This document shows, in pieces, positions 10,546 to 36,581 of a stretch of DNA of 61,498 nt. Below the pieces are notes generated by a model that saw only the letters and a list, made by a program, of their open reading frames with translations, was not told the DNA's origin and made no database searches. The DNA comes from a bacterium (GTDB taxonomy: Bacteria; SM23-81; DAOVCL01): assembly GCA_029932675.1 (NCBI GenBank), contig JAOZPP010000010.1:1-61498 (forward strand), written 5' to 3'. A program made the translations under genes and the position numbers. Every line of letters starts with the position of its first letter. Within the stretch, counting starts at the first letter, position 1.

Positions 10546-11082
10546 ATGGATAAGGCAGTAGCAATTGTGTTAAGTATAGCGCTGATCTGTATAGCGAGCA
10601 GCGGCCTTGCAGCCGATCATGGCAATTTGGCAATCGGCTACGACGGTTACGATGGGGGGGTATCGCTGCGGATGTTTCCATCCCCTAATTTTGGTCTCGA
10701 AGGGATAGTGGGGATGAGCTTCGAGGGAAGGAACAAGGACCTTGGCGATGACAATGCGGATTTCGACTTCTATCTTGGTGGTAACCTGGTTATACCGTTC
10801 AAGAAAGCTGAGAAGGCCAACCTGAATTTCTTCGTTGGCGGGGCGCTGCAGCGGGTTGATTCCCATGCAAAGGACGTTGGAAGGACCAACATCTATGGGA
10901 ACATAGGGCTAGCTCCGGAGATATTCCTGCTGGAGAACCTCTCCGTTGAGACGAAGTGTGGGATGCGGATCTCCATCATGGGGAAATCCTTTAAGGGGGC
11001 CAAGGACAATCGCTTTCGGATCCAGACCTATGGGCAAGGGGTAAGTATAGTCAGCGGGGTGGCCTTCCACTGGTACTTTTAG
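10546..11082 (+). CDS. Exported outer-membrane beta-barrel-like protein
   Basis: 178 residues. A signal peptide ('AIVLSIALICIASSGLAADH') precedes alternating strands with glycine turns: 'GNLAIGYDGYDGGVSLRMF', 'GLEGIVGMSFEGRN', 'LNFFVGGALQRVDSH'. The C-terminus ends in a barrel-like strand finishing HWYF with an aromatic last residue. The build is that of small 8-stranded porin-like proteins. GGAGG lies 8 bp before ATG 10546. It follows its own promoter candidate and is followed 131 bp later by a second exported protein. No enzymatic motif is present, and the specific function is unknown. Confidence 0.65.
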   Translation: MDKAVAIVLSIALICIASSGLAADHGNLAIGYDGYDGGVSLRMFPSPNFGLEGIVGMSFEGRNKDLGDDNADFDFYLGGNLVIPFKKAEKANLNFFVGGALQRVDSHAKDVGRTNIYGNIGLAPEIFLLENLSVETKCGMRISIMGKSFKGAKDNRFRIQTYGQGVSIVSGVAFHWYF

Positions 11083-20351: not shown

Positions 20352-20945
20352 ATGAGGATAGGACCGGAAAACCTTAACAAGATCTTCTCCGCCCTTGACC
20401 GCCAACTTGGAGTTTATGGTGGGGCTCCTATAAATCTCGTGGTATGTGGGGGCACAGCCCTTGCTGCCCTGGGACTTGTTAGTCGAACCACAAAGGACGT
20501 GGACGTTTTGGCACAAGCAGAAGAAACAGAAGAGGGAATTAAGGTTCTTAAAATTGATGAATTTCCCCGGTGGCTAAAGGAAGCAGCAGAGACCGTAGGG
20601 AGGGATTTTGGGCTACCTGAGGATTGGCTAAACCTTGGACCCGCCTCGCAGTTGGAGTCAGGGCTTCCCAATGGGTTTGAAAAGCGACTTGTAAAGAAAA
20701 GATATGGGAAATATCTGACGGTTTACTTTATCGGCAGGACAGATCAGATATTTTTCAAACTTTATGCAGCAGTTGACCGCAATGATTATCACGTGCAGGA
20801 TCTTTTCACACTGAAGCCAGCGGAGAAAGAGATGGAAGCGGCGGCAAAGTGGGTTCTAACTCAAGATGTCTCAGAAGGGTTCTACTTAGCCCTTAAAGAC
20901 TTCTTAGAAAGGTATGGATATGGAGACATCGCTAAAGGAATTTAA
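20352..20945 (+). CDS. Nucleotidyltransferase (DUF6036-like)
   Basis: 197 residues. The fold is shown by 'INLVVCGGTALAALGLVSRT' followed by TKDVDVLAQA (the GG...DxD core), and a later 'LTVYFIGRTDQIFFKLYAAV' with an acidic 'DRNDYHVQDL'. Such enzymes are close to AbiEii-type toxins. Its C-terminus overlaps the next gene by 32 bp, and the two form a tight pair. A small hairpin (AGGACTTTGAGTCCT) lies just ahead of it. This is a second nucleotidyltransferase pair, distinct from the one at 4279-4915 and the one at 28643. Confidence 0.7.
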   Translation: MRIGPENLNKIFSALDRQLGVYGGAPINLVVCGGTALAALGLVSRTTKDVDVLAQAEETEEGIKVLKIDEFPRWLKEAAETVGRDFGLPEDWLNLGPASQLESGLPNGFEKRLVKKRYGKYLTVYFIGRTDQIFFKLYAAVDRNDYHVQDLFTLKPAEKEMEAAAKWVLTQDVSEGFYLALKDFLERYGYGDIAKGI

Positions 20946-21939
20946 GGAAAGATTTTCTGAAGGGCTCTTCGAAATTCACTGGAAGCAATGGTCTGCCTTG
21001 GGTGTAGCCTCTCATGTTGAGCCGGAGATGAACTGGTTTATAGACCTTGAGGCATTGGTATTATCCACTCTCGTCCTGGGCTTAAAAGACGCCCGCCTTT
21101 TAAATGCCTCTATTGAGTGGTTAATCAAAAATGGCGAGTGGCTAAATCGCCTACGTCTTAAAAGGATCGCAAAGCTCTTTATGAGACCTCCAGCGAAATC
21201 AAGCTCGCAGTTTGGTCCCTTGCTCGATTCTGTGGCTTTCAAGCTGTTGGACAAAACCCTTCGGGAAAAATACGACCAAGAAGCACTGAGTGTGGGGGGA
21301 TTACGTAGTCAAGAAGCGGAGACATCGGACTATGAGGTTTTATTTAACAAGTTTCAGATTAGAGGCATTGTCACCCAACCAGTACTTCAAAGTCCTTCAC
21401 TGTTGCAGCTTAGACTTCGGTGGGTATTTGGCGTGGGCGCAAGAGTTGAAGTCATCACCTACCTTCTAAGTCACAAAAATGGCAACTCCAACGCCATGGC
21501 AAAAGAGGTCTTTTATGATCAAAAGAGCATATACCGAATTCTTGAAAAATGGCATAAGGCGGGGCTGCTGACAAAAGTCAAGGGACCAAAGATCGGAGCC
21601 TTTACCCTGGAAAGAAAAGAGGAGTGGCTCAATACCCTTGGCTTAAAAGGGATGCCGATTTATTTGAATTGGGTCAGTGTATTCCATCTGCTTAACCAGG
21701 TATTAAGAGCATTATCTCTTCGGCCATGGTCTGAGGATGAATATATGCTTTCGTCCTTTTTCAAGGATATCTTAGAAGAGGCGCAAGGTTTGGGGAGGTC
21801 TCTGGGGATCTCCTTCCCTGAACCCCACCAATACCCAGGCGCGGATTACTTTTCACCCTTTACATTAAAGGTCTTGGAGATAATCGAATACTTAAAGAAA
21901 GGGCAGGAAGGCCTTTCTCAATCCAACCCACCAAAGTAG
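20914..21939 (+). CDS. Winged-helix protein, partner of nucleotidyltransferase
   Basis: 341 mostly helical residues. A winged-helix segment is visible at about residues 185-245: 'GARVEVITYLLSHKNGNSNA', then 'FYDQKSIYRILEKWHKAGLL' and 'KGPKIGAFTLERKEEW'. The rest resembles no enzyme I know. ATG 20914 lies within the end of the nucleotidyltransferase gene, so the two are cotranslated. By position it may be an antitoxin or DNA-binding autoregulator of the pair. This is a context guess. Confidence 0.55.
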   Translation: MDMETSLKEFKERFSEGLFEIHWKQWSALGVASHVEPEMNWFIDLEALVLSTLVLGLKDARLLNASIEWLIKNGEWLNRLRLKRIAKLFMRPPAKSSSQFGPLLDSVAFKLLDKTLREKYDQEALSVGGLRSQEAETSDYEVLFNKFQIRGIVTQPVLQSPSLLQLRLRWVFGVGARVEVITYLLSHKNGNSNAMAKEVFYDQKSIYRILEKWHKAGLLTKVKGPKIGAFTLERKEEWLNTLGLKGMPIYLNWVSVFHLLNQVLRALSLRPWSEDEYMLSSFFKDILEEAQGLGRSLGISFPEPHQYPGADYFSPFTLKVLEIIEYLKKGQEGLSQSNPPK

Positions 21940-23246: not shown

Positions 23247-23987
23247 ATGGGAACTGATGAGCCATTGATCTTCCAGCGGCTTTTATGGCAGGAAAGCATC
23301 CAAGCGATAAAAGACAGCATAAGATTCAATAATTTTCAAAGCTTCCGCGCTTATTTGAGAGAAAGTCTCCCCCAAAATTCCAGCTATGTGCGTGTAAGGT
23401 ATACTAGATCTGTAATCCGCTGGTTTTTCCCTAATTATTCATTGGATGTTCTTCCAGCCAAGGTGTGGCGCAGTTATCACGATGACTCCCTACTGCAAGA
23501 TATTATGCGCTATTGTTATCTCGCTCAGGAACCGGTAGTAGCAGAATTCGTTACTGAGCATCTTCTTCCCCTTGCACCAGGTACTCTTGTGGATTCAGGT
23601 TACTTTAAGAATTTCTTGAGGGATAAATACGGGGTAGTCAAAAAGGATCCATTAAGATGTCTTAGGACTGCGGTTCGTGATTTAGGGTTTATCCACCGCA
23701 ATAAGAAAGATGCAATTGTCCAGAATATCCGCCTACCCAAAACAGCTCTGCTAATTCTTACACATCATATTTTCACTTCCTCTCCTCAAACGGTGAGCCT
23801 AAAAGAGATCATTTCGCATCGATTCTGGAAGTTCTTGGGTATCAAAGAGCCAGAGGAGGTTTGCAAAATTTTGAAGGAGGCAAATGCAAAGGGAGCAATT
23901 ACTAAATATATAATCGCCGATCAACTGGAACAGATAACCACTAAATATAGTTTAGATGAGCTTTTGCGAAGGAGAATTAGGCTGTGA
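23247..23987 (+). CDS. BrxA-like protein (DUF1819)
   Basis: 246 residues, a fit for BrxA (about 200-250). The pattern resembles BrxA of BREX defence: 'RVRYTRSVIRWFFPNY' early, 'VWRSYHDDSLLQDIMRYCYL' and 'QEPVVAEFVTEHLLPL' in the middle, and 'LGFIHRNKKDAIVQNI' with 'LPKTALLILTHHIFTSS' later. BrxA is a small DNA-binding protein needed for defence in some BREX systems. Its gene normally opens the operon, as here. GTGA overlaps the next start. The similarity is pattern-level; the position makes it more likely. Confidence 0.65.
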   Translation: MGTDEPLIFQRLLWQESIQAIKDSIRFNNFQSFRAYLRESLPQNSSYVRVRYTRSVIRWFFPNYSLDVLPAKVWRSYHDDSLLQDIMRYCYLAQEPVVAEFVTEHLLPLAPGTLVDSGYFKNFLRDKYGVVKKDPLRCLRTAVRDLGFIHRNKKDAIVQNIRLPKTALLILTHHIFTSSPQTVSLKEIISHRFWKFLGIKEPEEVCKILKEANAKGAITKYIIADQLEQITTKYSLDELLRRRIRL

Positions 23988-24469
23988 CAAGTGCAGATTT
24001 TATGAACATAGTCGCACGGTTTCAGGAACGTCCTGTTCCGGGCCGTAAGGTTTATGTTTGGCATGGTTCTCAGGTAAGATTATGGCAATGTCTGCCAGCA
24101 AATATCGTCCAAGAGATGGATCTCGTGAAAATAATTCCTGAAGATATAGGATTAGATGCGGATGAGATTCGAAGAAAAATGAGGAAGGCGATAGCTACCG
24201 AATTAGAAAAGTGCATCTCAGGGTTGAAAGGTCAGCAGATTTTAGTAGTTTCCAATGCCTATCTTTTAGCTCGTTACAGAATCCCATTAAGTGTTTTTTA
24301 TGCGGCCTACCTTAGCGATAGAACAATGCTTGTATTCCTGGTTCCGAAACAAAAAGTAGTAACAGAACTTCCTAAATACGCTGTCTTCATCCAAGATGCT
24401 ACATTGAAATACATTCAGGAATTACTCCCTAATGAACATCGAGATAACATCATCAAGGAGGCAGAATAA
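23984..24469 (+). CDS. Small protein in the brxB position
   Basis: 161 residues, starting GTG 23984 inside the stop of the previous gene and ending TAATG over the next start. BrxB (DUF1788) is the usual gene between brxA and brxC. The core here ('QQILVVSNAYLLARYRIPLS', 'VFYAAYLSDRTMLVFLVP') has the hydrophobic beta-strand layout seen in that family but is not a clear match. No P-loop is present, so it is not BrxF. I call it BrxB-like by position only. Confidence 0.45.
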   Translation: MTSADFMNIVARFQERPVPGRKVYVWHGSQVRLWQCLPANIVQEMDLVKIIPEDIGLDADEIRRKMRKAIATELEKCISGLKGQQILVVSNAYLLARYRIPLSVFYAAYLSDRTMLVFLVPKQKVVTELPKYAVFIQDATLKYIQELLPNEHRDNIIKEAE

Positions 24470-27400
24470 TGGATCGTGTCCCTATTCAAGAACTTATTGA
24501 AGTAGCCTTAGAGAAACCTGAAACAACTATCTCCTTGCTACAGGCGATTAAACAACCGGTAAAGACTGTAAGGACTTATCGTTTTACCTCCGATATTCGC
24601 CAATATTTCGAGGGGATTCTGGAAAAGGTTTCTACCGGCTGGGGGGGTGGCTACTGGGTTCAAGCGGAATACGGCGCAGGCAAGAGACACTTTTTGGCTA
24701 CGCTAACCTGCCTTTTGACCGATACATCTGAAGAGTTATGGTCAAATGTGCAAAATGAGGAAGTGAGAAAATATCAGCACAGATTGGAGGGTGTAAGACT
24801 CTTCCCGGTGGTCTTCACATTGAAAGGGCGTGCGGGAGTGGATGAAGGTGACAATCTTTTAAGAGTTATCGAAGAAGTCATTCAGGAAACTTTAGACGAG
24901 CAGGGGGATATAGAGGAAATTTCCATCACTACTGAAGATGAGATGATTCAATGGTACAAAACATGTCAACATAGCCTGAAGGTCCCCATTGATGACTTTA
25001 TCCGTGAAAAAGCCTATATCGATCCCTCTGAGCTAACAAGGGGAAAATTGGCGCGATTGATTACTGAATACTGCCAGAATAATAAAATACGTCCTGCAAT
25101 AACCATCTCTACGAAGGATAGAATCTCTCATATTTATCACCAGATCAAAGATCAGGGCTACCAAGGTCTTTTATTCGTGATTGATGAGTTTGAGGCCTGG
25201 CAGAGAAGGCATCCCATAGATTCGCCTGCCTATGCTTATGATGAAGAGGTGTTAGAAACCCTTTCTTGGATTCTCCCCAGGGATTTGGGTCTGGGAATCT
25301 TTACAATTGTCGCCTCTCAAATGGCTGCCCCAGCTAAACTGAGGGGAGAGGAGAAGGATCGATTTACCAATGTCGTATTGCTCAGAGAGGAGAAAGATTA
25401 CGATGTGATTGTCGCCAGCCGAGTCCGTGAATTAATCGGAGAAAAACTACCCGAAATCGCCCAATACTATGAATATTACTACAGCGAGTTCAAATTCTTA
25501 AAGACTGTTTCCAAGGATTACTTTTATTCTGTCTTCCCCTTTCAACCTCGTACTTTTGAAGTCATCCGTAAGATCACAGCCCGGGAGCTCCCCACCGCTC
25601 GATTGGGCATTAGTGTCATCTATGATGTGATCAGCAATTCTGGCATACTATCTCGCAATTCCCTGGTGACTGCTGGCGATCTGATGGTTTCAAAAGACTT
25701 CTTGGAGGCGATGGAGACCACTCCCTACCGCGATAGCTATAGAGCATATCAGGCGGCAATAGAAGGTTTAGATGACTTTGAATTGGATGAAGAAGACAAA
25801 GACCTCGCGGTCAGGATAATAAAAACCCTCTTTCTCTGGCACATCGCCTATTTGGATACACCAAAACCCATTTCAGTTCACGACCTCACTGAGGCAACCT
25901 TAACCTTTGGGGATGTGGTCTCAGGTGAGGATAATGTCCTCAGGGTTCTAAACAATATCCGTGATTTACCACAGGTCGATTATACCAAAGAGAAGGGAGT
26001 CATTTTCAAGGTTACTGAAAGAGAAATAAGGCCGGCCCGGATCTTTGGCATAATAAAGAAGAAGGTCAAAGACAAGTATGAGATCAAGACCAAATGGGAA
26101 AAGGGGCTGATCCTCAGTTTACAGGAAACCGAAGGGATAGGGGAAGGACTGTTCAGCGGATTTGATTTTGACGTCAGGAAAACTGTGTCGGTGGAATGTC
26201 AAAGACTGGAATACCCCGGAGAGGTCATCTTGGCCAGGAACTGGCGTGAGGAATATGGCTCTAAACTCGATGGACTTCACTTTAGAGTTGTGTTTCTCAC
26301 CAAACCCATAGATTTTGATCCCCAAGGTTTAGAAGACCCCCGGATTGCCGTTTGTGTTCCTTCGCCCTTGACTAATCCGGTCTTTGAGGCGGCATGGGAT
26401 CATCTGGCGATAACCAATATGGAAGAGATTTACGCCTCACAAACAGGAAGTGAGGCAGAGGGAGTAAAGGAATGGATTAAGTCGAAGAAAAGAGAGATCA
26501 TTAGCAGTTTTTTGAGTAAGCAAATCGGACTGTATAGAGATGGCAGGATATTTACTAAGCGGGAAATAGGTATAGAGTCCAAAGAAATCTTCTCGGTGAA
26601 AAAGGTGGATGGAATACTGGAAGGGCTTATCCCGCCCATACTATCCAACACCTATTCCCCGCCGCTTATCGGCACTGACAGCTTTCGGAAGAAGTTTACA
26701 GCCAGTGAGGCAAGGAAACTCTTTGAGGGCCTCTTCAAAGGGAACAAAAGCTCCAGTGCTACCAGTGCTTGCACTAACTTCGCGGCAGGACTAAAACTTG
26801 CCAGACCAGATAACCCGATGGAATTCAATCCAGAAGGAAACAAAGTATTCGAGATTCTTAGAGAGAAACTGGCCCAGGACAATGAAATCCACCTCTGGAA
26901 GTTGTATCGAGAGCTTCAAAATCTGGGATTGACCAAGGAAATCGTCACCCTTAATCTTTTAGCTTTTGTTTACCACAGGAAGCCCCCGGTAGAGATCGCA
27001 CTCAAACCGATGAACCGTCTTTCCATCCCTGGCAATAAGATAAACTCATTCAATCTCCGTCAAGTTGAATGGAAAGCTAGGTTTGAGGAGGATTTCGATA
27101 CCCTTGCGCCTAGCGGGGAGATCGCTTGGGAAGAGGTACTTCCCCTGGTTCGGATTATAAATCCCAATTTGAGAGTAGTTAGCAGGGCAGAGGAGATAAA
27201 ACAGCAGGAACAACAGTTGCTCCGTTCCTGCCAGGAGATCAAAGAACGAATCCCCCAGGTAAAAGAGAACCTGAGGATCCTTAGTGAGAAATTCGGTCAG
27301 CCCATAGCAGAGGGAAACTTTAAGATACTTGAAAATATTGAGAGATTAATCAGCATCAATGCCTACCCCGATTTTTACCTGCTCTTCAAAGATTTGTATG

Positions 27401-28302
27401 AAGATGAAGAGGGGTTTAAATCCGATTACGCAGCCTTCCAAAAGATGAAGACCTTGGCAGAACAAAGCACAGAATTACTCTCCATCAAATCCTACTTGGA
27501 TGGTGTTTCTCTGGGAGAACAGGAAAGGCTTTTTATGGACAAGGTTACTTTAGAAGAGCGGATATCGATTCCAGCCTTGTTGAACAATCCCTCGCTTCTG
27601 GGAAGCATTAAAGATCAGTTTGAGAAGTTCAGAAATTCCTATCAAATCCGTTATCAGCAATTCCATCGAGATTATTTTGAGGAGATTGCCAGACTGAAAA
27701 AGGACCTTGAATCAGCTCAGTCTAAAGTAAAGGCTATCAACCGACTGGGTAAGATTTCCGAATTACAATTTCCCAAAGAAGAGGGGCTTTCCGCAAAATA
27801 TGAAAATTTGCTGAGAGAAATCCAACCGTGCTCTAATGAGGACCCTGTAGCGGTGGAAACAAGTCCTGTTTGTCCAACTTGTGGTTTGAAATTAACCCAG
27901 GCTCTACCGACAAAAGAGATAAAAGAGTTGCTCTCTCATATTGACCGGGTCTTAGAGGCGAGGTGTAGGCAACTGGCACAAGCGTTGACCGAGCAGATCC
28001 TTAAAGAGGATAAGGAGAGAAAGCTGGACCAGTTGGTGAAAGTGGCCAATATCAGTGACTTGACCAAGTTAGCCACTATCCTTGATGACAACCTGGTAAG
28101 TTTAATAGCAGATGTTCTCAAAAAGGCAAATGTGAGAATGGAAGCCTATCCGGTGCTGGAGAACATAGGGAAAAGATACGGTCTGATCGAGGAGGAAAGG
28201 GTAGAAGAGGTGGTAAGTGCCTTTCGCCAAGAGTTGAAGAAAGCTTTCGAGGAGGCGAAGAAAAAGTATGCCGGGAAAAGGGTGAGGATAAGGTTGAGAT
28301 GA
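24469..28302 (+). CDS. BrxC-like giant ATPase (DUF6079/PglY-like)
   Basis: 1277 residues, the size of BrxC/PglY. The N-terminal P-loop region reads 'GGYWVQAEYGAGKRHFLATL', where residue 73 is Arg instead of Ser/Thr (codon AGA at 24685-24687). Walker B is 'QGLLFVIDEFEAW' and a sensor-like segment is 'LGIFTIVASQMAAP'. A long helical middle and a coiled-coil-rich C-terminal third (about 910-1230) follow, with 'VCPTCGLKL' as a zinc-knuckle-like CxxC. BrxC is an essential ATPase of BREX, thought to act with PglX and PglZ on phage DNA. It is coupled to both neighbours (TAATG upstream, ATGA downstream). The altered P-loop may weaken ATP use, or be an error. Confidence 0.75.
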   Translation: MDRVPIQELIEVALEKPETTISLLQAIKQPVKTVRTYRFTSDIRQYFEGILEKVSTGWGGGYWVQAEYGAGKRHFLATLTCLLTDTSEELWSNVQNEEVRKYQHRLEGVRLFPVVFTLKGRAGVDEGDNLLRVIEEVIQETLDEQGDIEEISITTEDEMIQWYKTCQHSLKVPIDDFIREKAYIDPSELTRGKLARLITEYCQNNKIRPAITISTKDRISHIYHQIKDQGYQGLLFVIDEFEAWQRRHPIDSPAYAYDEEVLETLSWILPRDLGLGIFTIVASQMAAPAKLRGEEKDRFTNVVLLREEKDYDVIVASRVRELIGEKLPEIAQYYEYYYSEFKFLKTVSKDYFYSVFPFQPRTFEVIRKITARELPTARLGISVIYDVISNSGILSRNSLVTAGDLMVSKDFLEAMETTPYRDSYRAYQAAIEGLDDFELDEEDKDLAVRIIKTLFLWHIAYLDTPKPISVHDLTEATLTFGDVVSGEDNVLRVLNNIRDLPQVDYTKEKGVIFKVTEREIRPARIFGIIKKKVKDKYEIKTKWEKGLILSLQETEGIGEGLFSGFDFDVRKTVSVECQRLEYPGEVILARNWREEYGSKLDGLHFRVVFLTKPIDFDPQGLEDPRIAVCVPSPLTNPVFEAAWDHLAITNMEEIYASQTGSEAEGVKEWIKSKKREIISSFLSKQIGLYRDGRIFTKREIGIESKEIFSVKKVDGILEGLIPPILSNTYSPPLIGTDSFRKKFTASEARKLFEGLFKGNKSSSATSACTNFAAGLKLARPDNPMEFNPEGNKVFEILREKLAQDNEIHLWKLYRELQNLGLTKEIVTLNLLAFVYHRKPPVEIALKPMNRLSIPGNKINSFNLRQVEWKARFEEDFDTLAPSGEIAWEEVLPLVRIINPNLRVVSRAEEIKQQEQQLLRSCQEIKERIPQVKENLRILSEKFGQPIAEGNFKILENIERLISINAYPDFYLLFKDLYEDEEGFKSDYAAFQKMKTLAEQSTELLSIKSYLDGVSLGEQERLFMDKVTLEERISIPALLNNPSLLGSIKDQFEKFRNSYQIRYQQFHRDYFEEIARLKKDLESAQSKVKAINRLGKISELQFPKEEGLSAKYENLLREIQPCSNEDPVAVETSPVCPTCGLKLTQALPTKEIKELLSHIDRVLEARCRQLAQALTEQILKEDKERKLDQLVKVANISDLTKLATILDDNLVSLIADVLKKANVRMEAYPVLENIGKRYGLIEEERVEEVVSAFRQELKKAFEEAKKKYAGKRVRIRLR

Positions 28303-28646
28303 AACCAGAGGGACACAAAGCAAAAGCTAACGAGATAAAGGATAGTCTGCAGGAATTGCTTCCCGACCCCGAAGGTAGACATGTGGTAGCGGTTGTGGAA
28401 CTGACCTACGGAATTGTGCAACATCTAATTGCCTACGGTATGGAAATCAAATACAACAAGCATTCGGATACCCACGTGGGGCTGCCACGACTTCTTCGTA
28501 ACTTTAATGAGGACAAAGTCGCTGCCCTTTTTGAACGTCTCGATTCCCTCAGACAGGGAAGATGGTATGGAAGCAGAGCAAATGGTGATGTAGTGAAAGA
28601 ATGCTTGGAGATCATAAAACAGATTGAGGGGTGGTGTGCACCGTGA
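28299..28646 (+). CDS. HEPN-like helical protein, partner of MNT
   Basis: 115 residues, helical, starting ATG 28299 over the BrxC stop (ATGA). It contains 'GIVQHLIAYGMEIKYNKH', 'HVGLPRLLRNFNEDKVAALF' and 'LRQGRWYGSRANGDVV'. The size and the immediate nucleotidyltransferase neighbour match HEPN-MNT toxin-antitoxin pairs, where HEPN is an RNase. The classic RxxxxxH motif is not obvious, so the HEPN label is provisional. Its stop overlaps the GTG of the MNT gene. Confidence 0.5.
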   Translation: MKPEGHKAKANEIKDSLQELLPDPEGRHVVAVVELTYGIVQHLIAYGMEIKYNKHSDTHVGLPRLLRNFNEDKVAALFERLDSLRQGRWYGSRANGDVVKECLEIIKQIEGWCAP

Positions 28647-29281
28647 TACCTGAAAATTTGATGATGCCTTTAATGGAATTTATTCGGAGAGCGCATGAGA
28701 TTCCGAATTTAGAAGGAGCAATCCTTTTTGGGTCGGCGGTAAAAGGCGAGCTGACAAAGAAAAGCGATATTGACGTTCTTCTCCTTTTTGATACCGACCA
28801 CAATCCGGAACTGGGAAAAGAAATGGATGGTGCCTTAAAACTCTCCTCTGATATCGCTAAAAAATATGATTTACCCTATTCCTTCTCTTTTGTGGTCAAG
28901 AATATAAATGATCCTGGCGATGTTGACCCCGATTTCCTCTGGAATGTTGCCCAAGAGGGGATACTCATCTGGGGGAAGCCAGACCTAAAGATTCTAAGGG
29001 AGCCTCACCCCTCCTTAGAGGCGATGATGCTAATTAGTTACTCCACTAAAGGCTTGAAGCCAGGCCAAAAGAGCGCGATTCAAAGAGGGCTTTTTGGTTA
29101 TAAATATAAGCTCTCTATTGGGCAGAAGCGATATCAGGGAGATAAAAGGGGATTGGTTAAAAAAAGTGGATGTCGACTGGGAGCAGGGGTTTTCCTTGTA
29201 CCAGCAAAGGACGCCAAAGCGGTGATCGAAATGCTACAGAAAAACGGAGCTAAGTATAAGGTTATCAAGCTCTGGAGATGA
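28643..29281 (+). CDS. MNT-type nucleotidyltransferase with C-terminal extension
   Basis: 212 residues from GTG 28643 (GTGA overlap with the HEPN-like gene); a GTG at 28631 is possible. The core motif 'LFGSAVKGELTKKSDIDVLL' is the GSxxxG...SDIDxL of minimal nucleotidyltransferases, and 'LPYSFSFVVKNINDP' is the third strand. About 90 C-terminal residues ('GLKPGQKSAIQRGLFGYKYK', 'GCRLGAGVFLVPAKDAKAVI') are additional. MNT partners AMPylate HEPN RNases to silence them. Its place inside a BREX-like operon makes a guard or abortive role plausible but unproven. Confidence 0.7.
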   Translation: MIPENLMMPLMEFIRRAHEIPNLEGAILFGSAVKGELTKKSDIDVLLLFDTDHNPELGKEMDGALKLSSDIAKKYDLPYSFSFVVKNINDPGDVDPDFLWNVAQEGILIWGKPDLKILREPHPSLEAMMLISYSTKGLKPGQKSAIQRGLFGYKYKLSIGQKRYQGDKRGLVKKSGCRLGAGVFLVPAKDAKAVIEMLQKNGAKYKVIKLWR

Positions 29282-29285
29282 ATTC

Positions 29286-29344
29286 GCATTCTTGGTGGCA
29301 AAATTACTCTTTATTCCACCTTTTTGCATTCTTGGTGGCAAAAT
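29286..29344 (+). repeat. Direct repeat GCATTCTTGGTGGCAAAAT x2, 40-bp period
   Basis: The 19-bp sequence occurs at 29286-29304 and 29326-29344, exactly 40 bp apart, filling the only sizeable gap (83 bp) between two tightly packed parts of the operon. It lies just ahead of the methyltransferase start. It may be a double operator or a duplication scar. No good promoter hexamers were seen within it. Confidence 0.8.
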
Positions 29345-29364
29345 AAACCTTTCCCATAGAGAAG

Positions 29365-31722
29365 ATGAGTGATCTAACTGAATTCATAAAAAAATACGGC
29401 AAGCCATACGATCCCGAGACGGACGATTACGACGTGCCGCCGTTTCAGAAGAATATAGATAACGCCTCCAAATCTTCCAAGATCTACAATATGCATATGT
29501 ATTGGACCAAACAAGACCCTTATGTGGTGAGGCAATACATAGAGCATTACACAAAACCTGGAGACATTGTCTTGGATGCCTTCTGTGGCACTGGGATGAC
29601 CGGAGTGGCGGCGATGATGTGCGGCCGGCACGCCATACTTTTGGAGATCTCACCAGCCTGTATACATATCGCCAGAAATTATACGACACCCATAGACCCC
29701 AATGTCCTGTATAAAGCGTATCAGGAGCTGAAGGCTAAGGTAGAGCCTGAGATAAAGCCGCTCTATAAGACGAAATGCCACAATTGCGGGAATTCCAATG
29801 CCCAGATCGCCAATACTATTCTTTCGGACGTTTACAAATGCCCTCGCTGTGGCGTGGATGTGCTCTATGCCGGGGATGGACGCTGGGAGAGGATGAAGAA
29901 AGGGGAGAAGTTAAGGAGGATTCGGTGTGGAAACTGTGGCTACGAGTTTAGTAAAGCGAAGGCGGAATTCGTGCGAGTTGAACCGATCGAAATAAGGGTG
30001 GATTGTTCCGTTTGTAAAACGAAGGGGCAAAAGAAGGCAAAACCTTTGGATGAAGAAGATTGGAAGAGATACATTGAGATAGAAGGTGGCGAGCGGTTCA
30101 TAAATGAATTGGGAAGTGAGGCTCTGGAGGAGATGAAAGAGGAAAAAGGGTTAGACAAACTCTCGCCTAAAGAGCCGCCCTATTGGTATCCCAAGGATGT
30201 GAAGTTTTTTGGCGATGAACCAAAAAGGAATTACAAGCGCGGCATCACCCATCCCTACCAGATGTTCTCCAGGCGGAATTTGATTGCACTGTCTATTTTG
30301 TGGCACTATATCGGTCAGATTGAAAGTGATCAGGTTGCGGATAAAATGCGATTACTATTCACTGCAACACTTTATAACGTAAGTTCGATGTACATGTGGC
30401 GAATGACTGGCAAAGGCGGTTTACGGAAAGGCACTCTCTATATTCCTTCTTTGATTCAGGACATGAATGTATTTAAGACTTTTCAGGATAAATCGGGTGA
30501 TCTCTTTAGGGCCGCAATTGAGATGGGATCCTTTAAGCCTGTTCTGTCATTGGGAGCTAAGAGTGATGCAAGGAGGTTAGAGTCTATACCCGATAATTCG
30601 ATTGACTTTGCTTATTATGACCCACCTTATGGCAAGAATATCAACTATAGTGAACTAAATATCATGTGGGAAGCGTGGCTGGATGAGTTTACTGATATAC
30701 ACAAAGAGATTCTTGAAAATGAATTTCAGGGGAAAAGCAGAGAAACTTATGAAGCAATGATGCTGAGTGCACTGAAAGAAGCTTATAGGGTTCTTAAGCC
30801 CGAGAGACGGCTTACAATGGTGTATAGTTATAGTGATCCCTCAATGTACCGCACCATCCAGAATATTGCGCATAAAGCTGGATTTATAGATGAGGGAGAA
30901 GTGTTACACGTAAACTCAACCATGAAAACTGTAGCCCAAATGGATTCGGATGTGACCCAACAACGCTTCCTGGTTTTTAACTTCAAAAAGCCAAGGGAAA
31001 TACAAAAGGAAAAGGCCATCAGAATAAGCGAGGATATTCAATATGAAGTGATCAAAGTAGTGCAGGAGTTTCTCATCAAGCATCCAGGTCAAACCCGCGA
31101 TTATATCTACGATCAGGTTATAAAAAGGTTGTTTACCTCCGTGCGGATTCAAAAGTTTGACCTCGATGAAATCTTGAAAAACTTCTTTCGCAAGGTGGGC
31201 AACGAGTGGTATGCACCAGGAACGCTGCTTACCCGGAAAGAAGAAGAGAAACCGCAAACAGAGTTATTCACCCCCCGATTACTTGAGCATCCGGAGAAGG
31301 AAGTTGTGCTCCGATTGCAGGAGTTTCTGGAAAAGTACGGGAAGGTCCCCTACAGCGAGCTGCGGGAGTTCTTTCTACGTAAGATCAACATTCCTATAGA
31401 CGGACACTTTGACCAACTGGTGAAAGAAAACTTCATTATAGAAGAAGGGAAGGTACGGCTGCCAACCTTGCAGGAACAGCGGAGAATGCAGGACATAACC
31501 ATTCGCTACCAAACCAGGATGATTAAGCGCTTTCTCGAAGGCAAATTTGACAAGAGGGTATCCGATACAGAACTCTGTGAATGGATGGAATTTTGCTATA
31601 AGAACGGGTTATACAGGGAAGGTGTAAGGCTTTTTGCCTTGATAAACCAAGAGGGGATGGACCAGGAGACGTTCAGAAAGATAAAGAAGATAGCCGAGGT
31701 ATGTAGGATAAAGTCTGAGTAA
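29365..31722 (+). CDS. DNA methyltransferase with zinc ribbons (BREX modification candidate)
   Basis: 785 residues. The SAM-binding motif I is 'VLDAFCGTGMTG' (69-80). Two zinc ribbons follow: 'CHNCGNSN' with 'CPRCGVD', then 'CGNCGYEF' with 'CSVCKTKG' (about 136-222). The catalytic motif is 'DPPYG' (from 419), typical of amino-methyltransferases of N6-adenine or N4-cytosine. The order motif I, inserted domain, DPPY fits the alpha or Zn-ribbon COG1743-like class. The last 200 residues are helical or winged-helix-like, and the final 50 match the next gene's C-terminus. It stands where PglX stands in BREX, but is much shorter than PglX (over 1100 residues). Confidence 0.85.
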   Translation: MSDLTEFIKKYGKPYDPETDDYDVPPFQKNIDNASKSSKIYNMHMYWTKQDPYVVRQYIEHYTKPGDIVLDAFCGTGMTGVAAMMCGRHAILLEISPACIHIARNYTTPIDPNVLYKAYQELKAKVEPEIKPLYKTKCHNCGNSNAQIANTILSDVYKCPRCGVDVLYAGDGRWERMKKGEKLRRIRCGNCGYEFSKAKAEFVRVEPIEIRVDCSVCKTKGQKKAKPLDEEDWKRYIEIEGGERFINELGSEALEEMKEEKGLDKLSPKEPPYWYPKDVKFFGDEPKRNYKRGITHPYQMFSRRNLIALSILWHYIGQIESDQVADKMRLLFTATLYNVSSMYMWRMTGKGGLRKGTLYIPSLIQDMNVFKTFQDKSGDLFRAAIEMGSFKPVLSLGAKSDARRLESIPDNSIDFAYYDPPYGKNINYSELNIMWEAWLDEFTDIHKEILENEFQGKSRETYEAMMLSALKEAYRVLKPERRLTMVYSYSDPSMYRTIQNIAHKAGFIDEGEVLHVNSTMKTVAQMDSDVTQQRFLVFNFKKPREIQKEKAIRISEDIQYEVIKVVQEFLIKHPGQTRDYIYDQVIKRLFTSVRIQKFDLDEILKNFFRKVGNEWYAPGTLLTRKEEEKPQTELFTPRLLEHPEKEVVLRLQEFLEKYGKVPYSELREFFLRKINIPIDGHFDQLVKENFIIEEGKVRLPTLQEQRRMQDITIRYQTRMIKRFLEGKFDKRVSDTELCEWMEFCYKNGLYREGVRLFALINQEGMDQETFRKIKKIAEVCRIKSE

Positions 31723-31749
31723 TATCACTTTAATAAGGGGGGAACCAAG

Positions 31750-32502
31750 GTGAATGAAAATCTGATTACACCGCAAAAGGCATTTGAAATACCTATCTTA
31801 AAGATCTTGATAGAACTAGGAGGAAGTGCTCCGACTCGAACTGTTTATGACCATTTGGAAAAGGAAATGAATCTGACATCAGGTGATTTACAAACAATGC
31901 ATGATGGTAGGGAAATTAAGTGGCAAAATAATGCCGCTTGGGCAAGAGCCAGACTTGTTAGAAATGGTGAGATAGATAATTCCATAAGAGGGGTTTGGAG
32001 AATAACTGAAGAAGGGAGAAAGCGCTACGAAGCTGAGGGACCTCTATATAAGCAATCGGACTATCCACCTATTCCGGCGAGAGCTTACCGGCCGAGAAAA
32101 AAGGGAAAGGAAAAGCTGGTTCACCCTACCGTAGCCACTCCAGAGTTTTTGCAGAGATGGGGAGTTAATCAAGGATTAAATCTGTTTGAACTGGGATTAG
32201 AAGACGTGCGGCAAAAATATTGGGAGCATTACCACAGGAAAGCGGAGGTGGATGATGCCTATTTGCTCAAGAAAGTCAAAAGTTTCGTCAAAGAGATCAG
32301 AGCATTCTTGAGGGGAGCTTCAAAGGTCGGTTTAGGGGATGAGAGACTATGCTTTTGGGTTTGGTTCTGTTATGAATTCGAGCTTTACAGAGAAGGTGCG
32401 CTTGTTTTTCGGAGGATAGACAGAGATTCGGTTTCCCCTGAGTCCTACAATTTGATCAAGAAAATTGGGTTGGCTTGTGAGCAAAGGGCAGAAGGCATTT
32501 AG
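31750..32502 (+). CDS. Mrr_N winged-helix protein with BREX-associated C-terminal domain
   Basis: 250 residues, GTG start with AAGG ahead. Residues 10-95 ('IPILKILIELGGSAPTRTVY', 'AWARARLVRNGEIDNSIRGV', 'WRITEEGRKRYE') match the N-terminal winged-helix of Mrr restriction enzymes. No Mrr catalytic domain follows. Instead residues 197-246 ('LCFWVWFCYEFELYREG', 'LIKKIGLAC') resemble the methyltransferase C-terminus (734-783). A basic linker, 'YRPRKKGKEKLVHP', joins the two. It lies 27 bp after the methyltransferase gene and 1 bp before pglZ. It may be a DNA-recognition subunit; this is inferred. Confidence 0.7.
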   Translation: MNENLITPQKAFEIPILKILIELGGSAPTRTVYDHLEKEMNLTSGDLQTMHDGREIKWQNNAAWARARLVRNGEIDNSIRGVWRITEEGRKRYEAEGPLYKQSDYPPIPARAYRPRKKGKEKLVHPTVATPEFLQRWGVNQGLNLFELGLEDVRQKYWEHYHRKAEVDDAYLLKKVKSFVKEIRAFLRGASKVGLGDERLCFWVWFCYEFELYREGALVFRRIDRDSVSPESYNLIKKIGLACEQRAEGI

Positions 32503-32503
32503 G

Positions 32504-35131
32504 ATGACCGGTAAAGTGCCACAAAATTTGACGGAATATTTTGAAGCTCAATTAAGTCAACTCTCTTCAGCTACTACTTTAGTAGTGCTCGATCCCATCG
32601 GCTACCTGAATTTGCCGAGAGAGTACAGGGGGCCTACGGGTAAGGATTGGAAGGTCTATCATTATTGGGAAAACGACCTTGAGTTCAAAATGGAGTATTC
32701 ACAACGGCCCTCTGATCCAAACTTCTCCTGTATTATCTGGGTAACTTTACCTCCTGGCAAGAGCGAAGTGAACTTGAGTTTTATCCCCGATATTTTAGCC
32801 AAGGCAGACAAGATAATTGACTTAGGTGTAGAAGGAGTGCTAAATCACTTCGTTCCCAATGAGACTTGGCCCAAGATCATCTTTGAATATCAAGAGGAGA
32901 TAAGCTATAACTTGTCTGGTTTTTACAGGGCTTATCAAGATCTACGAGAGAAGATCAGGCCGCCTCTTCGACTAAACAAAAACCACATTATCGCAATAAT
33001 ATTGTCCTGTCGTAACCCAGAACTAAGTGTGGATGAGTTACTCTTTGAAGAGCTGGATGCTGTAGATCTCCTCAAACATTATCTGAAAATAGTCTGGGCA
33101 CAGCGGTTAAGAATAGAAGATGTAAGACTTCTAAAGACATTGATCTTAGAGAGTAGCAGGGTAGGCGCTGGTCAAATTTTCCCCTGGCTTAGGGAAAGAC
33201 ATGACGAAGTAGCTGTGTTCCTTTATTCATTGGCTATTCTCAAAGGATACAAGATAAGTAACCCTGTGACACTTTTGAGAGGAATGGGCATTTTGGGATT
33301 TAATCCAGAAGAGATAGCAGATCAAGTCGATAAGCTTTTATCCTCAATAAAAAAGAGTAGCTCGCTCCGGGAGAGTCTTGTCAGAACTGCCGAGAAAAGT
33401 CTCAGCTTAGAGGATATGGACAGGATTGTCCAGAGTCTGGCTCTTAAGGAACCTGCTGTGATCGCCAAGGCTATCTTGAAGGAAGGTTCACCCCTTTTTG
33501 TTTTTAGTCTTACTCTGTGTTTTCTAAGAAAGATGGTTAGTGACAAGTTATTAGAGAAGGCGAATCTTTCGTGGATAAAAAGGTTAGATAGCCATCCCAT
33601 CTTGCAGGATGCTGGGCCGATAACTAAATTCACTTTTGCTGCGAAAGAAGCGCTTTCTTTTCTGAGGGAAATAGGCTTTATCAAGACGACAATAGATGAA
33701 CCCTTTCAGGAGAAGACGGAATTTGCCTCATTGATCGATTGGTACGACCAAACCCAAGCTTATCGTTTACAGTTTGCCTTAGCAAAGGCTAATCGATGCT
33801 TGAGGGCTATAGATAATCAAGATTTTAGAAAAACGCTCGCTAGTTACCTTGAGGTTCTTCGAAAAAGAGTCAGTGAATTCCTCGATAGAGTTGATATGAA
33901 TTTAGCTGAACTAATAGAGAAAGACCCGGAGAGTTATTTTTCTCATCCACGCCTCTCTGTAAATGTTCTAAGAGATCATATTCTAAAAAAAGGGATTAAG
34001 CCTACTGACCGGTCTCGACTATGGGTTCTTGTCTTTGATGGTATGCGATTGGATACCTGGAAGGAGATAGTCAAGCCCCTAATCTCTTCCAAATTTGAAA
34101 TAAGTGAAGAAAAGCTTTATTTGTGCCCTTTACCTTCTTGTACCGATATAGCACGCATCTCTTTGTTAGCTGGAAAACTTCCCCCTCATTGGAAGGATTA
34201 CCATGGATACCAGACTACTGACCATAACATCTTAGCTTCTAGGCTCTTCGGCCTTTCTCGGGAAGGCGGGAAAAGGGATTTGCGTATCGTAGTGGCAAGT
34301 GAGACCGATTATGGCCAAAGGAAGCTTGATTTAGAGGTGAGGCCTTACAACGTCTTAATCTATAACCTGAGTGACGATTGGATCCACGATTTCAGAGACG
34401 ATGTCTGGGAATTAAATCAGACCATCAAAGGGAAATTAGAGAGAAGTATATTGCAGGATTTAGAGGGTCGCATTGGTGAGGATGATTATATTATCATCAC
34501 CAGTGACCACGGATTTATTGAACTGGGAAAAAACAAGGAAATCAAGATCGACGAACCAGAGCAAAGTGCCATCAGTTATCGGTACTTAGACAACATAGAG
34601 CGACCGGAAGGGGTGAAGATCCAATATGAAGATGGTTTTTTTACTGTTGTTAAAGGGAGAAACTGGTTTGGGAGACTGAAAGGACGATTCAATCGTTATT
34701 CCCATGGAGGAATTTCTCTGGATGAGATGGTGGTTCCTGGAGTGACATTGAAAAAATTGGTACGACCAGCTATTAAAATAAAGATGAGGTTTCCTAAAGA
34801 AACTATTGAGGTTAACGAGGATGAACTAAGCAAGATAAATTTAGTGATAGAAAATACAGGCAATAAATTAGCAAGGTTTACTCTGCTCATGCAATTGGAT
34901 TCAGGCGAAGAGAAAAGATACGATGAAGAGCTTATTCCTCAAAAGTGCAAAGAATGTTTTCTCGATTTCATGCCCTCTCTAAGGACTAGGAATCTTCAGC
35001 TATTTTTAACCTATAAAGATGAAATGGGAAGAGAGATAAGGGAATCGAGGAGGCTGAATATTAAAGTAGTGGAGAGAAAAGACAAGATAAAGATAGACAC
35101 CAGCGCTTTGGATAGATTGGAGGAACTATAG
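32504..35131 (+). CDS. pglZ: PglZ phosphatase-domain protein of BREX
   Basis: 875 residues from ATG 32504, with AGAAGG 8 bp ahead; an upstream TTG frame overlaps the previous gene and is less likely. The PglZ alkaline-phosphatase-like domain is clear: 'VLVFDGMRLDTW' (about 510), 'LPSCTDIARISLLAG' (nucleophile region), 'IITSDHGFIELG' (about 665) and 'YSHGGISLDEMVVPGVTL' (about 730). A beta-rich tail follows (about 750-875). PglZ is the one gene common to all BREX types and is needed for exclusion of phage; its substrate is unsettled. The N-terminal half is helical and without known motifs. Confidence 0.92.
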   Translation: MTGKVPQNLTEYFEAQLSQLSSATTLVVLDPIGYLNLPREYRGPTGKDWKVYHYWENDLEFKMEYSQRPSDPNFSCIIWVTLPPGKSEVNLSFIPDILAKADKIIDLGVEGVLNHFVPNETWPKIIFEYQEEISYNLSGFYRAYQDLREKIRPPLRLNKNHIIAIILSCRNPELSVDELLFEELDAVDLLKHYLKIVWAQRLRIEDVRLLKTLILESSRVGAGQIFPWLRERHDEVAVFLYSLAILKGYKISNPVTLLRGMGILGFNPEEIADQVDKLLSSIKKSSSLRESLVRTAEKSLSLEDMDRIVQSLALKEPAVIAKAILKEGSPLFVFSLTLCFLRKMVSDKLLEKANLSWIKRLDSHPILQDAGPITKFTFAAKEALSFLREIGFIKTTIDEPFQEKTEFASLIDWYDQTQAYRLQFALAKANRCLRAIDNQDFRKTLASYLEVLRKRVSEFLDRVDMNLAELIEKDPESYFSHPRLSVNVLRDHILKKGIKPTDRSRLWVLVFDGMRLDTWKEIVKPLISSKFEISEEKLYLCPLPSCTDIARISLLAGKLPPHWKDYHGYQTTDHNILASRLFGLSREGGKRDLRIVVASETDYGQRKLDLEVRPYNVLIYNLSDDWIHDFRDDVWELNQTIKGKLERSILQDLEGRIGEDDYIIITSDHGFIELGKNKEIKIDEPEQSAISYRYLDNIERPEGVKIQYEDGFFTVVKGRNWFGRLKGRFNRYSHGGISLDEMVVPGVTLKKLVRPAIKIKMRFPKETIEVNEDELSKINLVIENTGNKLARFTLLMQLDSGEEKRYDEELIPQKCKECFLDFMPSLRTRNLQLFLTYKDEMGREIRESRRLNIKVVERKDKIKIDTSALDRLEEL

Positions 35132-35147
35132 TGTGTGGAGGCAATCA

Positions 35148-36581
35148 ATGGATTTCAACGAAAAGATTTTACACTACTTAAAGGATCGAGTAGTGCTCAA
35201 GCCCTTGACTCGATGGAACGAAGCCTATAAAGAGTTTCCACGATATGTGATGGAGTATCTGGTAGCAAGATATGTAGATCCGGACAATCCAGTAATGGGG
35301 CAACAGAAGATAGATCGAATCTTAAATGAGCGCTATGTAGAAAGTGGTGCAAAAGAGCTGATAAAGAGCAGAATTAAAGAAAAAGGGGAATACACCCTGC
35401 TGGGGCAACTTCAGGTTCGTCTTGATGCTGGCCGTGACCATTATTGGGCAGAGGTCCCTGCATTGGCCGATAATTTTGTGCGAGTTGGCCGAAGAGTGTT
35501 AAATGAATATGGTGACGTTCTACTCGCTGGTGGTGCCTGGGGCACAATGGTGATTGAGTACGACCCCCAATATGAACTCAAGGGACGACTTTATCCCTTC
35601 TATATCCGTGAATTCACTCCTTTCCAGATCACCCGTATATCTTTGGGTGATTATATAGAAAAGCGGCAGCTTTTCAATACCGAAGAGTGGATCGATCTAC
35701 TTATTCAAAGCATAGGCTTTAACCCTCGAAGGATTAGCAGGCGCGAGAAGATGTTGATGCTGCTTAGATTAGTTCCTTTTGTTGAGGCCAATTACAACCT
35801 CATTGAATTAGGCCCAAGGGAGACGGGCAAAACCTATACCTATCGCAACACCTCCAGCCGATCTTTCGTAATTTCAGGGGGTAAAACTACTCCGGCTGTT
35901 CTTTTCTATCATAGAGGTACAAAAAAGATAGGTATTTTAGGACAGAAGGATGTAGTTTTTTTCGATGAGATTGCTAACACATCCTTTACTGAGCCGGATG
36001 CCACAGTTAGTATACTGAAGGATTATATGCAGACTGGGAAGTTCTCCCGTGGGGATATGGAATTTTCGGCTCAAGCCAGCATCGTATTAGCTGGGAATAT
36101 CGACACGGATATGGAAAGAAAACGACCAGCTGATCATTATAAGCATCTGTTCGTAGTTCTACCAGCGGAATTAGGTGAAGATTGTGCTTTCTTGGATCGA
36201 CTGCATGCGTTTCTCCCTGGTTGGGACATACCGAAAATAAGGCCGGAAAATTATGCTCAGGGCTATGGTTTTGTGACCGATTATTTGGCTGAGATATTCA
36301 CCCGATTGCGACGGAAGAACTATCAGACCATTGTTAATGCTCATGTCGAATTCGGCCAAATGACTGGCAGAAATCAGACTTCCATAAAGAAAACAACTGC
36401 TGGCCTTCTTAAACTCATCTTTCCGCATCGGAAACCACAGGACATTTTGACCGAAGAATTCAAGATGTGTTTAGATTTAGCAATAGAAGCAAGACAAATG
36501 GTCATCGATCAGTTGTCAATTCTCGCTCCGAAGGAGTTTAAAAACATAGACCTAGATAGATCAATAAAATGTCTCTTTTGA
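35148..36581 (+). CDS. brxL: BrxL-like AAA+ protein, short form without Lon domain
   Basis: 477 residues from ATG 35148, with GGAGG 6 bp ahead. The family text is plain: 'EWIDLLIQSIGFNP', 'LLRLVPFVEANYNLIELGPR' with P-loop 'GPRETGKTY' (about 222-230), 'FVISGGKTTPAVLFY', Walker B 'VVFFDEIAN', 'AQASIVLAGNIDTDM', 'FLDRLHAFLPGWDIPKIRPE' and 'YGFVTDYLAEIF'. BrxL assembles into rings around DNA and is needed for phage defence. Longer BrxL proteins (about 670) add a Lon-like protease region; this one ends near 'APKEFKNIDLDRS' and lacks it. It closes the operon, 16 bp after pglZ. Confidence 0.9.
   Translation: MDFNEKILHYLKDRVVLKPLTRWNEAYKEFPRYVMEYLVARYVDPDNPVMGQQKIDRILNERYVESGAKELIKSRIKEKGEYTLLGQLQVRLDAGRDHYWAEVPALADNFVRVGRRVLNEYGDVLLAGGAWGTMVIEYDPQYELKGRLYPFYIREFTPFQITRISLGDYIEKRQLFNTEEWIDLLIQSIGFNPRRISRREKMLMLLRLVPFVEANYNLIELGPRETGKTYTYRNTSSRSFVISGGKTTPAVLFYHRGTKKIGILGQKDVVFFDEIANTSFTEPDATVSILKDYMQTGKFSRGDMEFSAQASIVLAGNIDTDMERKRPADHYKHLFVVLPAELGEDCAFLDRLHAFLPGWDIPKIRPENYAQGYGFVTDYLAEIFTRLRRKNYQTIVNAHVEFGQMTGRNQTSIKKTTAGLLKLIFPHRKPQDILTEEFKMCLDLAIEARQMVIDQLSILAPKEFKNIDLDRSIKCLF

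Follow-up and report, generated by a model that had tools for sequence, protein, structure and literature searches.

An apparently undescribed BREX-family variant that combines the gene order of type 1 with BrxL and with a BrxC and methyltransferase resembling those of type 3

The 61,498-nucleotide contig JAOZPP010000010.1 (assembly GCA_029932675.1; GTDB lineage Bacteria; SM23-81; DAOVCL01), hereafter the window, carries nine genes that resemble a bacteriophage exclusion (BREX) operon. A preliminary description, made from the sequence alone, read them as a BREX-like system matching none of the six described types. Which named type, if any, does this locus belong to, and which of its genes form part of the system? 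Our analysis indicates that the locus is quite likely a BREX-family phage-exclusion system and an apparently undescribed variant, with the gene order of type 1, a BrxC and methyltransferase resembling those of type 3, and BrxL replacing BrxHII, the type 3 helicase. The proposal of an unnamed subtype is supported in that the order recurs in other genomes, the backbone proteins form clades of their own, and no description of this gene set was found in the open-access literature (subscription papers, supplementary tables and preprints were outside the scope).

The nine unidirectional genes of the preliminary description are real. Their open reading frames (ORFs) lie on the + strand at 23247–36581 and form one tight operon, in which intergenic gaps do not exceed 83 nt and several genes overlap slightly. 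The widest gap, of 83 nt, lies between the MNT and methyltransferase genes. The genes and the evidence for them are as follows (aa, amino acids):

23247..23987, + strand: brxA-like gene, 246 aa (phmmer to the Halorarius 'BrxA family protein'; profile–profile comparison; identity within the clade of related loci)
23984..24469, + strand: BrxF/BrxB-position gene, 161 aa, predicted AAA+-like fold without Walker A (AlphaFold2, Foldseek, conserved place)
24469..28302, + strand: brxC-like ATPase gene, 1277 aa (PADLOC BrxC, full-length homologs, tree, motifs)
28299..28646, + strand: gene for a HEPN-like small helical protein, 115 aa, in a non-core accessory cassette (weak HEPN fold match; standalone pairs elsewhere)
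28631..29281, + strand: MNT (minimal nucleotidyltransferase) gene, 216 aa, in the same non-core accessory cassette (Polbeta, MntA antitoxin family)
29365..31722, + strand: gene for a PglXI/BrxXI-type N6/N4 DNA methyltransferase, 785 aa (PADLOC PglXI, N6_N4_Mtase, alignment, core and tail trees)
31750..32502, + strand: adaptor-slot gene, 250 aa, with an Mrr_N winged-helix head and a methyltransferase-like tail (Mrr_N, tail match, trees)
32504..35131, + strand: pglZ, 875 aa from the likely ATG, 888 aa from the TTG at 32465 (PF08665, BREX_PglZ_3, motifs, tree, start context)
35133..36581, + strand: brxL, 482 aa, with an N-terminal domain and an MCM-like AAA+ domain (TIGR02688, 8EMC, tree, Walker motifs)

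The operon contains both PglZ and BrxC, whose joint presence in one operon is the criterion for BREX. PglZ matches PF08665 with 33.4 bits (cut-off 25), and BREX_PglZ_3 is its best match among the NCBIfam BREX PglZ models (8.9e-17, under that model's cut-off). Its start is most likely the ATG at 32504, directly after the stop codon of the Mrr_N gene, rather than the mechanically assigned TTG. The phosphatase/nuclease metal-site residues of PglZ are intact, and the HGG motif is followed by a C-terminal extension, which type 3 PglZ reportedly lacks. BrxC is recognized by PADLOC (1.5e-11; Pfam sub-threshold, E = 0.015) and aligns end to end with the BrxC-like proteins of related loci at 31–39% identity. 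Its profile match is 2e-56 (100%) to type 3 versus 5e-27 to type 1. The Walker B motif IDEF of BrxC is intact, and a zinc-hook-like CPTC motif is present. BrxL is matched by BrxL_ATPase (1.6e-114), by TIGR02688 (471.8 bits, cut-off 329.3) and by the structure 8EMC (5.7e-93); its Walker motifs are intact, and it carries no Lon or HKD C-terminal domain.

The two small upstream genes are more diverged. BrxA has no match in the profile libraries and is linked by phmmer (2e-7) to an annotated 'BrxA family protein' of Halorarius halobius, whose plasmid locus NZ_CP101162 confirms the identities of both BrxA and BrxC. Profile–profile comparison gave 90.6% to type-3 BrxA and 47% to type-1 BrxA, and identity among clade members is 35–45%. 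The calls of brxA, brxC, pglZ and brxL made in the preliminary description are upheld by these family, homolog and profile matches. The second gene product is predicted by AlphaFold2 to adopt an AAA+-like fold (predicted local distance difference test score 86), for which the best Foldseek match is NSF (E 6e-4), followed by p97 and Orc2. Homologs occupy the equivalent place in six related loci (L076, L079, L125, L136, L207 and L208). The predicted fold, lacking Walker A, fits the description of BrxB/BrxF as inactive STAND proteins (PMC12839542; PMC10164562). The name BrxF is used here by place and predicted fold only, because profile comparison with type-3 BrxF (0.7%) and type-1 BrxB (DUF1788; 0.03%) was significant for neither. 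In the profile libraries, BrxL, PglZ, PglXI, Mrr_N and MNT are matched, whereas BrxA and the small second gene are not. Such libraries currently miss or under-score the BrxA, BrxF-position and BrxC proteins of the variant.

BrxL separates this locus from type 3. It reportedly occurs in types 1 and 4 only (PMC10164562), and a survey of ~21,500 assemblies found it entirely absent from types 2 and 3 (PMC12839542). Searches at E <= 10 detected no BrxHII, which is reported in 77% of type 3 taxa, in the window or the clade loci; the positive controls reached ~1e-171 or better. Family searches of the nine window proteins gave no match to brxP (3'-phosphoadenosine-5'-phosphosulfate reductase). In trees sampled with type 1, 3 and 4 sequences beside the clade, BrxC of the window and its relatives forms one group (100) outside all three types. 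It adjoins the BrxC proteins of Halorarius and of the Chloroflexota locus L178 (99) and falls to the side of type 3 rather than with type 1 (91). The PglZ clade is likewise one group (99, Shimodaira–Hasegawa-like approximate likelihood ratio test) outside type 3 and sits with type 1 at 88 support, and the BrxL clade (100/100) is nearer type 1 than type 4; both clades, like that of BrxC, are distinct from the sampled type 1, 3 and 4 sequences. The BrxL tree also led us to reject a type 3/type 4 hybrid. Given the reported restriction of BrxL to types 1 and 4, the absence of BrxHII and the separate clades of the proteins, the locus appears to be an undescribed variant.

Comparison with the named systems bears out this mixed composition. 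Like type 3 (brxF, brxC, pglXI, brxHII, pglZ, brxA), the locus has a BrxXI/PglXI methyltransferase with a zinc-finger insert, a BrxC with CxxC-hook relatives, and BrxA with a small BrxF-position gene. Unlike type 3, it possesses BrxL instead of BrxHII, the PglZ extension, an adaptor gene and a type-1-like order, and its BrxC and PglZ fall outside the type 3 clade. The gene order (with accessory genes added), the nearer BrxL and the PglZ extension after HGG are shared with type 1 (brxA, brxB, brxC, pglX, pglZ, brxL), from which it differs in a methyltransferase that is not PglX-type, a BrxC nearer type 3, no DUF1788 BrxB, and a BrxL without the Lon/HKD domain. With type 4 (brxP, brxC, pglZ, brxL) it has in common a short BrxL without C-terminal domain and, in the type 4 locus L046, an Mrr_N gene beside brxL; it carries a methyltransferase instead of phosphorothioation enzymes, and its BrxL, BrxC and PglZ lie outside the type 4 clades. 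BR-3 systems consist of a DUF499 ATPase, a methyltransferase, a BrxHII-like helicase, PglZ and an inactive STAND protein (PMC12839542). They resemble the window in that PglZ is combined with a related methyltransferase and with a small protein of inactive-STAND-like kind, but the window ATPase has no DUF499 match, no helicase is present, PglZ is not a standalone domain, and BrxL is there. The Halorarius plasmid locus (L062) has the order methyltransferase-BrxA-small gene-BrxC-PglZ, with no BrxL or adaptor found; neither was found in L178, whose contig carries no methyltransferase.

Recurrence was examined by scanning 84,980 species genomes with a methyltransferase alignment and comparing every ORF of the best 80 loci with the window and type 3 reference proteins. 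Where neighbours are visible, most loci are ordinary type 3; many of these have BrxHII, and BrxL occurs in none of them. A window-type BrxL query against the 80 loci matched clade loci only, and no ordinary BrxHII-bearing type 3 loci. The order brxA-brxF-brxC-methyltransferase-adaptor-pglZ-brxL is contiguous, as in the window, in L076 (an archaeon) and in L079, L125 and L136 (Chloroflexota). In a Thermoflexus metagenome-assembled genome (MAG) the set is split, with brxC on L168 and methyltransferase-adaptor-pglZ-brxL on L077. A BrxL search (E <= 1e-120) of 327 genomes of the class of genome G390 revealed eight with a BrxL 70–75% identical, adding L208 (genes ordered alike, with brxA truncated where the contig ends), L207 and the partial loci L204, L205, L206 and L209. 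Altogether the seven-gene set is contiguous in six loci including the window, the other five being four Chloroflexota and one archaeon. This recurrence makes the set look like an unnamed BREX variant, and a chance neighbourhood was rejected because the gene set recurs across phyla. Viral contigs scanned with BrxC and with the methyltransferase yielded no relatives, tblastn of plasmids with BrxC retrieved Halorarius only, and a search of 325 genomes of the archaeal phylum returned only the locus already known. A PglZ search of relatives mainly retrieved ~520-aa proteins, which were taken as PorX-like regulators, not BREX.

The methyltransferase has a history different from that of the backbone. 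Of the best 25 PADLOC matches, PglXI alone is a BREX methyltransferase model and stands far ahead (4.7e-105), so that the enzyme is not a type-1 PglX; N6_N4_Mtase matches at 4.3e-19. Its zinc-ribbon target-recognition insert carries four cysteines invariant with type 3 in the alignment. The type 3-style zinc-ribbon assignment in the preliminary description stands, whereas an enzyme of 785 aa is not especially short as had been stated. In the catalytic-core tree the clade is broken up: the window enzyme is sister to a Thermoplasmata methyltransferase (L075), whose frame stops before the tail region and whose contig bears no recognised BREX genes. Keeping the clade together was rejected for the core (approximately unbiased test, p = 0.00016). 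Because the backbones group and the methyltransferase core does not, the sequences argue that BrxC, PglZ and BrxL are inherited as a unit while the marking domain is exchanged between loci, with its tail family kept. In L207, brxC and the adaptor are separated by an ORF of 122 codons (positions 7080–7445) that corresponds to the methyltransferase tail without the catalytic domain.

The adaptor gene is located directly upstream of pglZ and matches Mrr_N at 2.9e-17 in the window. The slot is occupied in ten of the 11 loci with a visible stretch upstream of pglZ, sometimes by two copies, and its head varies: Mrr_N in the window, L077, L079, L207 and L208, HARE-HTH in L125 and one L136 copy, and an HrcA-type winged helix in L076. 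The inclusion of Mrr_N as a built-in gene therefore holds for the conserved slot, but not for the Mrr_N head, which is replaced in several relatives. The last ~75 adaptor residues form a conserved helical tail that is homologous to the C-terminal helical tail of the methyltransferase (35% identity, E 7.8e-9 within the window), and one adaptor row in L204 was assigned by this tail. Adaptor tails form one group (95/94), to which the methyltransferase tails from these loci do not belong, and a clade uniting the latter was not rejected (p = 0.30); for these reasons the tails point to an old duplication. The tail may be a docking module for a partner common to methyltransferase and adaptor. A gene resembling an IS200/REP-type transposase (weak Y1_Tnp match) lies between methyltransferase and adaptor at L125:9120-9824. 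The Mrr_N gene of the type 4 locus (L046:489-1121) has a head like that of the window and does not have the common tail.

The HEPN-like and MNT genes behave differently. MNT is identified by Polbeta (3e-10), with the MntA antitoxin family at 35.4 bits, under the cut-off of 60. The 115-aa protein has no convincing family match in the profile libraries; a HEPN protein is its closest fold match in the PDB (E = 0.59, probability 0.77), and the canonical RX4-6H motif, the HEPN RNase signature of type VII (HEPN-MNT) toxin-antitoxin systems, was not seen by eye. The earlier MNT call stands; the HEPN-like identity is weakly supported. Among clade loci with a visible brxC-methyltransferase junction, only the window has the pair. 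In L076, L079, L125 and L136 nothing lies at the junction, and elsewhere it carries other cargo: a 134-aa ORF with a weak VbhA-antitoxin match in L208, and ParE toxin, aspartyl-protease-like and PIN genes in L080. An 835-aa protein with GIFT/DUF4350 matches follows brxC in L168, and a DUF262 gene sits at the corresponding place in the type 1 locus L185. Standalone HEPN+MNT pairs exist on contig C11 of the window's own genome (56% identity) and in another genome (67% identity). The sequences argue that the pair is a passenger cargo cassette, not part of the BREX system; it is possibly a backup toxin-antitoxin-like module. A nine-gene system, as first proposed, is not borne out: in the survey of neighbourhoods and of conservation with pglZ, seven genes pass, whereas HEPN and MNT fail, occurring only in the window copy and as a separate cassette elsewhere.

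Could a named type account for the locus? The locus could be a usual type 3 BREX from which BrxHII was lost and next to which brxL was acquired by chance, without a separate lineage. Type 3 is indeed the closest named type for methyltransferase and BrxC, and BREX_PglZ_3 is the best NCBIfam model, yet BrxL has the same neighbours in several phyla and forms one clade, BrxC and PglZ fall outside the type 3 clade, and the PglZ extension is reportedly missing in type 3; this explanation, already weakened, seems improbable. A divergent type 1 (brxA-B-C-X-Z-L) in which PglX was replaced by a type-3-style methyltransferase is about equally improbable. The shared order, the BrxL nearer type 1 than type 4 and the PglZ grouping at 88 speak for it, and the type 1 resemblance noted in the preliminary description holds to this extent, but BrxC lies on the type 3 side in both tree and profile, and the small gene has no DUF1788 match. 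The product of this small gene may still be related to BrxB in fold.

Neither of two further explanations fares better. HEPN, MNT and Mrr_N might be built-in components, for example a HEPN RNase silenced by MNT and released upon BREX inhibition. HEPN and HEPN-MNT have been reported as backup effectors in BREX loci (PMC12839542), and in the window the pair lies inside the operon with overlapping genes. With the junction empty or differently filled in every other visible clade locus, the pair standing alone on other contigs and no canonical RX4-6H motif, we hold this to be unlikely. A decayed or non-functional remnant in the window's genome is suggested by a Fic gene fragment nearby and by the Walker A of BrxC, EYGAGKRH(F) at 24667–24693, where Arg follows Lys instead of the Thr/Ser (GKT/GKS) of all 18 other BrxC proteins inspected. 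All nine frames, though, are open and full length and the other examined catalytic motifs are intact, which makes a remnant the least probable explanation. An undescribed BREX variant is preferred, and several observations count against it. The Arg could impair ATP use in this BrxC copy; known BrxF and BrxB (DUF1788) sequences are not significantly matched by the BrxF-position protein; in L080 the adaptor is missing from its place between methyltransferase and pglZ; and L207, otherwise complete, is without the catalytic domain of the methyltransferase. Almost all relatives come from MAG contigs, and two of them have in-frame stops or frameshifts. L076 has a single in-frame TAG in the methyltransferase and in PglZ (10763-10765 and 14116-14118), and the L136 methyltransferase is broken; these copies may for that reason be damaged or misread. 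Pyrrolysine decoding and decay are alternatives for the L076 codons, and no pyrrolysine synthetase (PylS) over the cut-off was found in the 1.2 Mb archaeal MAG.

How might the undescribed variant work? In type 1, the core complex consists of BrxB, BrxC and PglZ, and the assembly and DNA binding of BrxC are controlled by ATP (PMC13326643). PglZ has been shown to be a nuclease that depends on metal (PMC12205998); BrxL, a DNA-binding protein of the AAA+ class, is required for restriction in several systems (PMC10164562, PMC12839542). The sequences show the gene content and order, their conservation, the intact catalytic motifs and the separate clades; the defence function, complex formation, tail docking and division of labour described here are inferred. 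The PglXI-type methyltransferase would use its zinc-ribbon recognition insert to mark a specific host DNA site. BrxC and PglZ would join the AAA+-like BrxF-position protein in a core complex on DNA together with BrxA, as in type 1 BrxB:BrxC:PglZ, and unmarked incoming DNA would switch the complex to restriction, in which BrxL would serve as the DNA motor and PglZ would nick the DNA. The adaptor would be a second DNA-binding subunit with an exchangeable head, whose methyltransferase-homologous tail would let it dock on the same partner. Because of the type 1 biochemistry of the core, PglZ and BrxL, the most likely working mode is that the PglXI-type enzyme marks host sites and that the core, with BrxL and PglZ, restricts DNA lacking the mark.

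A bolder and rather doubtful extension is that the adaptor is a second, exchangeable recognition subunit, which uses a methyltransferase-derived tail to dock at the same site of the BREX complex and takes part in the choice between marking and restriction, heads and catalytic domains being swapped while tails are kept. If true, BREX recognition would be modular in a plug-in fashion previously undescribed. The conserved tail linking methyltransferase and adaptor offers a concrete lead on the choice that BREX makes between marking and restriction. Helicases of other types have been treated as replacing BrxL (PMC12839542 and PMC10164562), and a lineage combining a type-3-like core with BrxL tests this swap directly. 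A small unassigned fraction was dropped as incomplete in the ~21,500-assembly survey (PMC12839542).

With a G+C content of 0.39–0.46, against 0.50–0.58 in the adjoining stretches (2–20 and 40–52 kb), the region at 20–40 kb has the look of an island. Besides the BREX operon it contains a Fic_N fragment, a YhcG nuclease and a DUF6036/AbiEii-like nucleotidyltransferase that has a partner gene. The nucleotidyltransferase gene, upstream of the BREX operon at 20352-21939, overlaps a gene of 341 aa in which a TrmB-like winged helix is weakly matched, and the two are a probable toxin-antitoxin-like pair.

BrxL was also seen in another setting on Meiothermus and Thermus plasmids (L181:7489-16056, L186:11132-15608), with vWA and tubulin-like genes in Meiothermus and after two uncharacterised genes in Thermus; the annotation of these stretches shows no BrxC/PglZ. 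BrxC matches in several Chloroflexota were rejected as BREX, being a standalone relative of the C-terminal region, in several cases beside NAD-dependent DNA ligase. Such standalone proteins of ~380–670 aa, related to the C-terminal half of BrxC, occur in L173, L175, L177, L172 and L040, and in three Chloroflexota genomes (L173, L175, L177) ligA, encoding the ligase, adjoins them. The window's genome contains a second BREX-related locus on another contig (G000:C19; L073: 7710-19044), composed of a NOV_C-domain helicase, a DUF1156 methyltransferase and a DUF499 ATPase (BR type 1/Hma-like).

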